Shown here in pieces: positions 44,222 through 46,894 of a stretch of 61,328 bases of DNA. The translations under genes were made by a program, and so were the position numbers. Numbering within the stretch: position 1 is the stretch's first letter; each line of letters opens with the position of its first letter. The notes under the pieces are model-generated. The model was given only the letters and a program-made list of their open reading frames with translations. It searched no databases and was not told the origin of the DNA. The DNA is from an uncultured Pseudomonadales bacterium (GTDB taxonomy: Bacteria; Pseudomonadota; Gammaproteobacteria; Pseudomonadales; Azotimanducaceae), in NCBI GenBank assembly GCA_905182095.1, contig CAJJAQ010000014.1, positions 1 to 61,328 on the forward strand, in the 5' to 3' direction.

Positions 44222-44332
44222 GGTTTCTATTTGAGGTTTTCTATTTGAGGGTTTCTATTTAAAGGTCCCTATTTAGGGGTCCTTTTTAGAGCTTTCTTTT
44301 TAGAGGTTTCGTTTTAGAGATTTCTTTTTATC
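44222..44332. repeat. About eight degenerate 14-bp tandem units (e.g. GGTTTCTATTTGAG, GGTTTCGTTTTAGA)
   Basis: Direct reading; units step every 13-14 bp. Confidence 0.8.
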
Positions 44333-44372
44333 TTATCAACTTCTCTTTTGAAGATTTTTCTATCTTCTTCTA

Positions 44373-44410
44373 GCTTTTGACGGCTTTTGACGGCTTTTGA
44401 CGGCTTTTGA
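44373..44410. repeat. 3.8 perfect tandem copies of GCTTTTGACG (10 bp)
   Basis: Direct reading, adjacent to tRNA 3' end. Confidence 0.9.
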
Positions 44411-44452
44411 TATGGTGGGCCCACCAGGACTCGAACCTGGGACCAATGGATT

Positions 44453-44801
44453 CACATTCTCACTGCCTTTCGACAATGTGCGGACTATCTCATCTCCCTC
44501 GCCAACTTATCACCAAGTAACTTATCACCAAGTAACTTAGTACTAAGAATCGTTAGGGAGCGGGACGCTCTGGCCTGTTATTAAGAGCACTTGAAGCCTT
44601 CTTTTAGTCTCGGTTTAAACTATGTTTAAACTAGACCAAAATTCGGTTTCAGCTCTCAGGTAGTCTCTGCACCTTCCGACAGTGTACTGTCGGCTTGGCT
44701 CAGGATTGCCGGCGGCCCTGCGTTTATTGCAAGTTCGCTACGGTTTCCCTGAATTCATCCCGTTCATCCTGACCCTTTCGGTGTCAGGCGCACCTGTATT
44801 G
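44453..44801 (-). ncRNA. Group I self-splicing intron (349 nt) in the tRNA-Ile2 anticodon loop, no internal ORF
   Basis: Minus strand: P element AATTCAGGGAAACC, Q AATCCTGAGCCAAGCC, R GGTGCAGAGACTA, S GATAGTCC; P4 TTCAGG/CCTGAG, P3 CGGGAT/GTCCCG, P7 GACTA/TAGTC, P8 CTCCCT/AGGGAG; terminal G; exon U before intron; GTG guide at nt 9-11 complementary to CAU. Confidence 0.93.
44504..44539. repeat. 2.4 tandem copies of AACTTATCACCAAGT (15 bp) in the intron P8 loop
   Basis: Direct reading. Confidence 0.9.
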
Positions 44802-44989
44802 ATGAGTCCACTGCTCTAACCAACTGAGCTATAGGCCCCATATCATATCGCTATCATTTGTTTGTACGGCATGCCGCGCAAACTGTCATCGCACTTGGCG
44901 CAATTATTACACAAAGATGACAACACTGCTGTTCAGAAGTGATAATTCGCTCCTAGGATAGGCTTCCTCAATGCAAAAGCAGACTTCGC

Positions 44990-46894
44990 CTAAACGTTGT
45001 TTCTGCCTTTGCCACCTTCGACGCTTTCATCAAGAAAACTACGCAAGTGTTCCGAACGGCTAGGATGACGCAATTTGCGCAATGCCTTAGCCTCAATCTG
45101 ACGTATTCTTTCACGTGTTACATCAAATTGCTTACCTACCTCTTCCAGAGTGTGGTCGGTATTCATATCAATGCCGAAGCGCATACGCAGAACTTTGGCT
45201 TCGCGAGCGGTTAATCCACCCAACACATCTTTAGTCGCTTCTCTTAAGCCTTCGCCTGTAGCAAGGTCTATAGGAGAGCCAATTGTACTGTCTTCAATAA
45301 AGTCACCCAAGTGCGAATCTTCATCGTCACCAATTGGCGTTTCCATGGAAATCGGTTCTTTGGCAATTTTTAGTACTCGCCGTACTTTATCTTCTGGCAT
45401 CTCCATACGCTCGCCTAGTTCTTCTGGCGTTGGCTCACGACCCATTTCTTGCAGCATTTGCCGTGATACACGGTTTAGCTTATTAATGGTTTCTATCATG
45501 TGCACCGGAATACGGATGGTTCTGGCTTGGTCCGCAATAGAACGCGTAATAGCCTGACGAATCCACCAAGTAGCGTAAGTTGAAAACTTATAGCCGCGAC
45601 GATATTCAAACTTATCCACGGCCTTCATCAAACCAATGTTACCTTCTTGAATAAGATCTAAGAACTGTAACCCGCGGTTCGTGTATTTCTTCGCAATCGA
45701 AATAACCAAGCGCAAGTTCGCTTCGACCATATCTTTTTTCGCTCGGCGAGCTTTCGCTTCGCCCAATGACATACGTCGATTAATATCCTTAATTTCAACA
45801 ATGCTGAGTTCAGTAATTTTACTCAGAGCTTTCATTTTCTTTTGTGACCGGAGAATGTCTTCGCGCTGGTTTTCTAACGCAACGGCGTATTCTTTTTTGC
45901 TCTTGGAAATCTTGTTCATCCAAGTCACGCTGATTTCATTACCGATATATTCTTTGCGGAACAATTCGCGAGGCACCCGAGCACGCCTGACAACTGCGTT
46001 AGTAATAATACGCTCATGACGGCGCACAATACCTTGGGCCTCACGAGCCATGGCCACCATGCGATCAAAATGCTTTGGTACTAACTTAAAGCAGCAATAG
46101 GCTTCGGCCAGTTTAACCATCTGAGCTTCTGACTCTTTGCTGCTAGCACCTTTCTCTTCAATTATTTTCAGCGACTTATTGTATTGACGCTTAAGTAGAG
46201 AAAAACGCTTCTTCGCTTCAATGGGATCTGGGCCCTTATTCTCTTCTTCCTCTTCCTCAGCAACCACCGGAGTGCCATCTGGGTTCAGCGCTGGCGTACC
46301 GTCTGCATTTAATACAGGCTCTGGCTTCTTCGGCGGCTCTTGACCCACCTGAGTTGCTGCAGGAACATTATCTGTGGGGTCTAAATAGCCTACTAACAGA
46401 TCCGCAAGCTTTTCTTCTTTGGTTACATCCGCATAGGTATCGAGTAAGTAACTGACAGTGCCAGGGTAATAGGCCAATGCCGTTAAAACATCTCTTATGC
46501 CTTCTTCGATACGCTTAGCAATTGCGATCTCACCTTCTCTGGTGAGTAGCTCAACAGTACCCATTTCACGCATATACATACGTACTGGATCTGTTGTGCG
46601 ACCTGCTTCAGTCTCTACCGCTGCAAGGGCAGCCGCAGCTTCCTCCGCGGCTAGCTCATCAGCGGTATTTTCTTCATTAGAAAGCAATTCATCTGCATCT
46701 GGGGCTGTTTCATAAACAGTAATCCCCATATCGTTAATCATGCGAATAATGTCTTCGATCTGCTCGGGGTCAGAAATATCGTCGGGCAGGTGATCGTTGA
46801 CTTCGCCGTAGGTCAAAAAGCCCTGCTCTTTGCCCTTTTTAATAAGTTCTTTTAGGCGCGATTGCTGCTGGTCATTGGCAATTTGATTACTCAT
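44990..46894 (-). CDS. rpoD: RNA polymerase sigma-70 factor RpoD
   Basis: [101 protein letters not shown]. Confidence 0.98.

Follow-up and report, generated by a model that had tools for sequence, protein, structure and literature searches.

A P7.1-type domain between P7 and P3′ of a gammaproteobacterial tRNA-Ile intron marks a group I lineage shared with phages

Why does a tRNA intron of a marine gammaproteobacterium, whose relatives bear the labels K189A clade and HTCC2089-like, carry 94 nucleotides between the 5′ strand of P7 and the 3′ strand of P3? Compact IC3 introns are the usual model for bacterial tRNA introns, and in a review the latter are described as group I introns found in cyanobacteria and in a few alpha- and betaproteobacteria (PMC4033280). 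In the Azoarcus intron, P3′ is described as following P7 directly, with no insert (PMC4498298). An earlier note on the window, which is the whole 61,328-nucleotide stretch of DNA analysed here, had placed the 94 nucleotides between GACTA (44661-44665) and GTCCCG (44561-44566), and these coordinates are right, on the minus strand. The gene, the intron and its core helices are as follows.

44413-44838, minus strand: intron-interrupted tRNA-Ile2(CAU) gene, with exons 44802-44838 and 44413-44452
44453-44801, minus strand: group I intron of 349 nt (RF00028 76.4 bits, P1 U-G, terminal G)
44453, minus strand: omega-G; the 5′ splice site follows the U of CAU and precedes C, and the exons restore the anticodon loop
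44756-44762, minus strand: P3 5′ strand CGGGATG, 7/7 pairs with 44561-44567
44661-44665, minus strand: P7 5′ strand GACTA, pairing with TAGTC 44483-44487 (RF00028 alignment)
44561-44567, minus strand: P3 3′ strand CGTCCCG, the best P3′ partner, 3′ of the insert
44483-44487, minus strand: P7 3′ strand TAGTC (RF00028 alignment)
44494-44560, minus strand: P8, CTCCC 44556-44560 with GGGAG 44494-44498, paired by inspection and used in model R1 (see below)

When the exons are joined, a single complete tRNA results, with the anticodon CAT, which ARAGORN labels Met by its anticodon. The spliced tRNA has the Ile2-type loop GACTCATAATC, also written GACUCAUAAUC (anticodon CAU, 44413-44838, minus strand), which gives its identity as Ile2(CAU). 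The interrupted gene was missed when ARAGORN was run on the window itself. The intron has the core helices P3-P8 and P7, a U-G pair in P1 and a terminal G, and its exons rejoin to a tRNA; it is a group I intron. The Rfam model RF00028 matches 44461-44813 on the minus strand over all 253 positions (76.4 bits, E 9e-19), and in this alignment the insert is a single long insertion after AGACUA. A search of the whole genome (97.75% complete) found no second intact copy of tRNA-Ile2(CAU). Thus, the cell most likely depends on the splicing of the intron in this sole copy. The intron is predicted to excise itself, for which the sole tRNA-Ile2 gene is the genetic argument. A second tRNA intron of the same genome (L002, G000:C80:12909-13122) lies in tRNA-Arg(CCU) and lacks the domain, its P3′ (GACGGATGC) directly following P7. 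Directly 3′ of the CCA end of the tRNA-Ile2 gene, a short tandem repeat TCAAAAGCCG occurs in about four copies (44370-44413, minus strand).

Is P3′ correctly placed? Every position was scanned for pairing with the P3 5′ strand in 168 insert-bearing introns. In nearly all of them, the best 7-nt partner lies 3′ of the insert and makes 7/7 pairs. A P3′ adjoining P7 was rejected, since such a strand makes 3-5 of 7 pairs in 165 of the 168 introns. P3 also shows compensatory changes across tRNA types (CGGGAUG/CGUCCCG, UCGGGUG/CGCCCGA, CUGGGUG/CGCCCAG, CUGGAUG/CGUCCAG, and CCGGGUG/CGCCCGG). The window intron has a P3 of the GGRUG/CRYCC class with P3′ 3′ of the insert, and GAAUU in J3/4.

The stretch from P7 to P3′ (44561-44665) folds with -31.3 kcal/mol (z -4.2), and none of 200 shuffled sequences is as stable. 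A stem closes the insert, as the earlier note had said; its helix GAGAGC/GCTCTT is better read as two helices, CCTG/CAGG and AGAGC/GCTCT, which gives the following parts.

44657-44660, minus strand: P7.1 outer helix, 5′ strand CCTG, complementary to 44574-44577
44574-44577, minus strand: P7.1 outer helix, 3′ strand CAGG, from homologs and covariation
44652-44656, minus strand: P7.1 inner helix, 5′ strand AGAGC, covarying with 44584-44588
44584-44588, minus strand: P7.1 inner helix, 3′ strand GCTCT, from homologs and covariation
44578-44583, minus strand: 3′ bulge UAAUAA (URAUNA) between the helices, shared by nearly every homolog when the search did not demand the bulge
44589-44591, minus strand: 3′ bulge AGU (AGY), 5′ of the inner 3′ strand in most homologs
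44592-44651, minus strand: variable P7.1 tip, a UGAA(A)CC/GG(C)UUCA stem enclosing a long hairpin, which folds in close relatives
44602-44641, minus strand: the long hairpin named in the earlier note, TTTTGGTCT-A-GTTTAAAC-ATA-GTTTAAAC-CG-AGACTAAAA, 40 nt

The conserved part of the insert is its base, namely, CCUG/CAGG, the URAUNA 3′ bulge, AGRRC/GYYCU and the AGY 3′ bulge. In one homolog count, positions 1, 3, 4 and 6 of URAUNA were part of the anchor pattern, and the counts at these positions are no evidence. The window intron has the outer helix of the CCUG/CAGG type, URAUNA, the inner helix of the AGRRC/GYYCU type and AGY, by which the P7.1-bearing lineage is recognised below.

That a structured, P7.1-like domain lies between P7 and P3′ is borne out by covariation in homologs; both helices covary strongly, in bacterial and in phage sets. 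The bacterial set comprises 73 different domains, each with a tip of 6 nt, and their alignment over the domain is gap-free. Every one of the nine pairs is standard in 73/73 (100% paired), and two-sided changes occur in 5 of the 9 pairs, three of them among the five pairs of the inner helix (44652-44656/44584-44588). These changes fill 51 cells, compared with a mean of 15 for shuffled data, and none of 500 shuffles reached this. When the 3′ strand is slid by 1-3 columns, pairing falls to 27-62%. By mutual information over the whole intron in 142 tRNA-Ile introns, the pairs of the inner helix rank with those of P2, P5, P6, P8, and P9. Since the tRNA-Ile set was gathered by a pattern fixing CCTGRG, and with it the CCTG strand, the outer helix was tested on other sets. 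A tRNA-Lys intron (L166), which is an RF00028 match obtained without the CCTG pattern, has the outer helix GCGG/CCGC. Viral sequences were gathered by one scan with CCUG/CAGG fixed and one with the outer helix left open, which gave 138 distinct matches. The inner helix pairs in 122 of these, and the outer helix is fully complementary in 121 of the 122; the other 16 have 0-3 outer pairs and were taken as chance matches. Eight outer helices were found in phages, namely, CCUG/CAGG (80/122, partly from the fixed-pattern scan) and seven types free of that bias: CUGG/CCAG, CCGG/CCGG, GUGG/CCAC, GCGG/CCGC, UCGG/CCGA, CUUG/CAAG, and UCUG/CAGA.

Is the domain peculiar to this intron? With RF00028, introns were found in 33 of the genomes in a search of 98 relatives. 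A scan with AAGGTNCAGAGACTACCTGRG across 11.3 million genome contigs gave at least 120 stretches. Among the matches listed, nearly all belong to Gammaproteobacteria (Lysobacter, Luteimonas, Rhodanobacter, Dyella, Steroidobacter, Woeseiaceae, Granulosicoccus, and many MAGs), Hymenobacter and a Chloroflexi MAG contribute a single case each, and almost all have the order AGACUA - CCUG - AGRRC - U(tip)AGY - GYYCU - URAUNA - CAGG - P3′. The combination of P7.1 with a tRNA intron is not unique, and the same domain recurs in at least about 150 further introns of bacteria and over 100 of phages. The feature is more conserved and widespread, and less peculiar to the window intron, than the earlier note could know. 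A search across Pseudomonadota with model R1 found matches in 3 of 399 genomes besides that of the window, one of the three (L246) being an insert-free intron; with so few matches, the domain has a patchy occurrence among the sampled genomes. No additional sequences came from searches around the tRNA-Lys genome. In the available parts of the literature on group I introns, P7.1 and tRNA, no description of the P7.1 domain in a tRNA intron was found.

Several other introns were noted. A T-loop intron in the tmRNA gene of Hymenobacter (Bacteroidota; L086) carries the same P7.1 domain. Introns in tRNA-Thr(UGU) (L155, L157, L160, and L163) have a different insert at the P7-P3′ site, in which GGGGG/CCCCC (or AGAGG/CCUCU) closes a conserved loop that starts with UGA and ends with AUAAG. 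An insert-free intron (L211) lies at another site of tRNA-Ile(CAU), 5′ of the anticodon, between GGACU and CAUAAUCC. A supposed endonuclease ORF in the P7.1 of L209 was rejected, as the locus is actually what is left of the 3′ part of an intron and has no convincing ORF.

The domain is also common in viral contigs, where the psbA intron of the cyanophages S-PM2 and S-RSM88 has the best annotation among the matches, and crAss-like phages carry the domain too. The S-PM2 psbA intron (AJ630128), which Millard is said to have described in 2004, has the same P7.1 domain (CCUGAGGGAUAUAGUUCCCUUAAUAACAGG) and the same type of P3 and J3/4 (GGAUGAAUU) as the window intron, and unlike the latter it lies in a phage protein gene and has a 6-nt tip; the comparison covers P3, J3/4 and P7.1. 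Model R1 was built from 26 bacterial introns, mostly of the tRNA-Ile type, with a tRNA-Lys intron and the Hymenobacter tmRNA intron. Since the P7.1 positions are part of R1, its scores in part repeat that the domain is there: 83 bits for the window, 80 for S-PM2 psbA, 84 for the crAss-like cr6_1, mostly 69-81 for viral contigs of the simple type and 33-42 for those with a second hairpin, 55-59 for the tRNA-Thr variants, 44-51 for tRNA-Leu(CAA), 16-31 for insert-free tRNA-Arg and tRNA-Leu introns, 14 for Twort, and none reported for T4. In trees of the cores with the inserts removed (about 150 columns, long branches, unrooted, Azoarcus BH72 absent, one bootstrap unsettled), insert-bearing and insert-free introns split with support of 100/100 and 99/98; the tRNA-Ile, tRNA-Lys, tRNA-Thr, tRNA-Leu(CAA) and phage introns and Twort stand opposite all insert-free tRNA introns. 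Thus, the P7.1 arm marks an intron lineage and is no peculiarity of the tRNA-Ile gene in the window. This lineage is common to phage protein genes, the gammaproteobacterial tRNA-Ile, tRNA-Lys and tRNA-Leu(CAA) genes, and at least one tmRNA gene. Some single viral contigs (L277, L330, L291, and L313) have two or three introns of the P7.1 type.

The earlier note read the locus as an Azoarcus-type IC3 tRNA intron that had independently gained an IA-like P7.1/P7.2 insert. Like the Azoarcus pre-tRNA-Ile intron and other compact IC3 introns, the window intron sits at the anticodon-loop site of a tRNA, here the same tRNA-Ile(CAU), with a similar P4-P6 sequence and GAAA-type L2 and L9. Unlike it, compact IC3 tRNA introns have no insert, P3′ directly after P7 and another class of P3 sequence; P3 and J3/4 are CGGGAUG/CGUCCCG with AUGAAUUC, as against GGAGUC/GACGGCUCC with UCAAAUUC. 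The core trees and the R1 scores set the window intron apart from insert-free tRNA introns, and the same domain occurs in phage introns, which makes the IC3-plus-insert reading unlikely. IC3 membership was rejected on the conserved 94-nt domain between P7 and P3′ and on a core apart from that of the insert-free tRNA-Arg and tRNA-Leu introns; judged by P3, J3/4 and the core trees, the rest of the intron, too, goes with P7.1-bearing phage introns and not with the compact IC3 type. The window intron should be classed as a member of the P7.1-bearing lineage shared with phages, and no longer as an IC3 intron with an IA element.

How does this lineage relate to the known kinds of group I introns? 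A group I intron with P7.1 is a known kind, and the domain in the window is a variant of a known arrangement. IA2 introns, such as those of phages T4 and Twort, also have an additional paired domain at this place, 3′ of the P7 5′ strand and 5′ of P3′. Theirs consists of side-by-side P7.1 and P7.2 hairpins with a GUA linker, then GAAA before P3′, with P7 within ACGACUA, a sequence unlike that of the window domain and an R1 score of 14 bits or none. IA2 membership was rejected, as the window has a single stem interrupted by two 3′ bulges, against the two GUA-linked hairpins of IA2. One interrupted stem, P7.1/P7.1a, is the arrangement of IA1, which the shape in the window resembles by description. 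The two-hairpin P7.1-GUA-P7.2 arrangement of IA2 is described in PMC3428280, and the label P7.1/P7.1a is used for the Bacillus nrdF intron (PMC3073962). Outside phages, P7.1 and P7.2 are reported from an rRNA intron of a cyanobacterium (PMC1995217), and tmRNA group I introns are reported to have a recognised P7.1 region that can host endonuclease genes (PMC11915505). Among tmRNA introns, that of Hymenobacter (L086) shares the domain of the window, while the gammaproteobacterial L203, L204 and L210 have a two-hairpin insert. The tRNA-Leu(CAA) introns of Colwellia, Spongiibacter and relatives (L029, L048, L110, L127, and L142) have the same P7.1 base and URAUNA bulge, and unlike the window intron they have an extra GUA-hairpin-GAAAC before P3′, reminiscent of the P7.2 of IA2. 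From their sequences, they look like a link, with the window-type stem followed by GUA, a second hairpin and GAAAC. These five introns are inserted 5′ of the anticodon.

A wider reading is possible and is offered tentatively: the psbA-type phage introns, the tRNA-Ile, tRNA-Lys and tRNA-Leu(CAA) introns and some tmRNA introns may form one subgroup by their P7.1, apart from IC3 and IA2, and tRNA-Ile(CAU) may have been colonised twice. If this is true, Azoarcus-type introns entered that tRNA on one occasion and the phage-type lineage on another. A second widespread gammaproteobacterial lineage with a phage-like P7.1 would change the classification and the presumed origin of tRNA introns, and it would also offer natural introns with and without P7.1 in the same tRNA as a means of testing P7.1 function.

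What might the domain do? In IA introns, the P7.1/P7.2 extension is described as associating with P7-P3-P8 (PMC4498298) and as part of the periphery that encircles and stabilises the guanosine pocket (PMC1995217). An IA-like role is suggested here because the position is the same, the bulges are conserved, and the base is constant with a free tip. The best explanation of the pairing, covariation, distribution and lineage split, and quite a probable one, is that the 94 nt are the P7.1 peripheral domain of the lineage shared with phages and would clamp P7-P3-P8 and steady the guanosine site. By analogy, such a clamp, as in IA introns, is the most likely role. The base of P7.1 would pack on P7-P3-P8 with the tip pointing outward, and the URAUNA and AGY bulges may make tertiary contacts with the core. 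With the base docked, the guanosine-binding site would be steadied, which would allow the pre-tRNA to splice; the long tip would be dispensable for splicing. A docking site was sought among the 142 tRNA-Ile introns by testing P7.1 for covariation with other parts of the intron, and nothing clear was found.

It is improbable that the domain is a neutral loop extension with no role, conserved from common descent only. The tip is plainly free (2-100 nt), and insert-free introns of tRNA genes, the crystallised one of Azoarcus among them, are reported to work without the domain (PMC4498298, PMC3984707). However, many introns keep both helices through two-sided changes, and these changes, together with the conserved residues of the bulges, speak for selection acting on the domain's base.

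The long hairpin described in the earlier note is indeed a stable fold; the 40 nt alone give -14.1 kcal/mol (z -4.9, 0/200 shuffles). It is not the conserved feature, being a fast-changing, lineage-specific tip, with comparable rods only in the closest relatives. Four of these (L020, L024, L025, and L030) have long AU-rich tips that fold into rods unlike in length and sequence. Among homologs, the tip ranges from 2 to 100 nt, and it is 6 nt long in about half. Thus, the long AU-rich hairpin is a grown P7.1 tip, the least conserved part of the domain, and it is of little weight except as a sign that the tip tolerates growth. The near-perfect palindrome, with GTTTAAAC twice, and the rapid change of the tip in length and sequence among close relatives might recall a mobile or repetitive element (MITE/REP-like) that landed in the P7.1 loop; this is very improbable, as the hairpin occurs once in the 2.57-Mb genome and the four close relatives show gradual change at the same place, with no clean presence or absence. 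It is scarcely credible that the hairpin serves in the pre-tRNA as a transcription terminator or a processing site: although stable, it is rich in A and U and is not followed by a U run, a terminator scan of 44300-45100 found none, and termination here would remove the sole tRNA-Ile2.

P8 is enlarged in the window intron alongside the P7.1 tip. On the minus strand, it contains CCCUAAC...GAGGG (44551-44560 with 44494-44501), which is presumably similar to the C7.2 GAAA receptor obtained by in vitro selection, and L2 forms a GAAA tetraloop (44772-44784). A literature search on the receptor term was fruitless, and the types of L2 and P8 are associated loosely at most. By a rough count, about 41 of the 142 tRNA-Ile introns have both CCCUAAC...GAGGG in P8 and GAAA in L2. 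The P8 loop of the window intron also has a tandem repeat TAAGTTACTTGGTGA of about 2.4 copies (44504-44539, minus strand), which is single or altered in close relatives.
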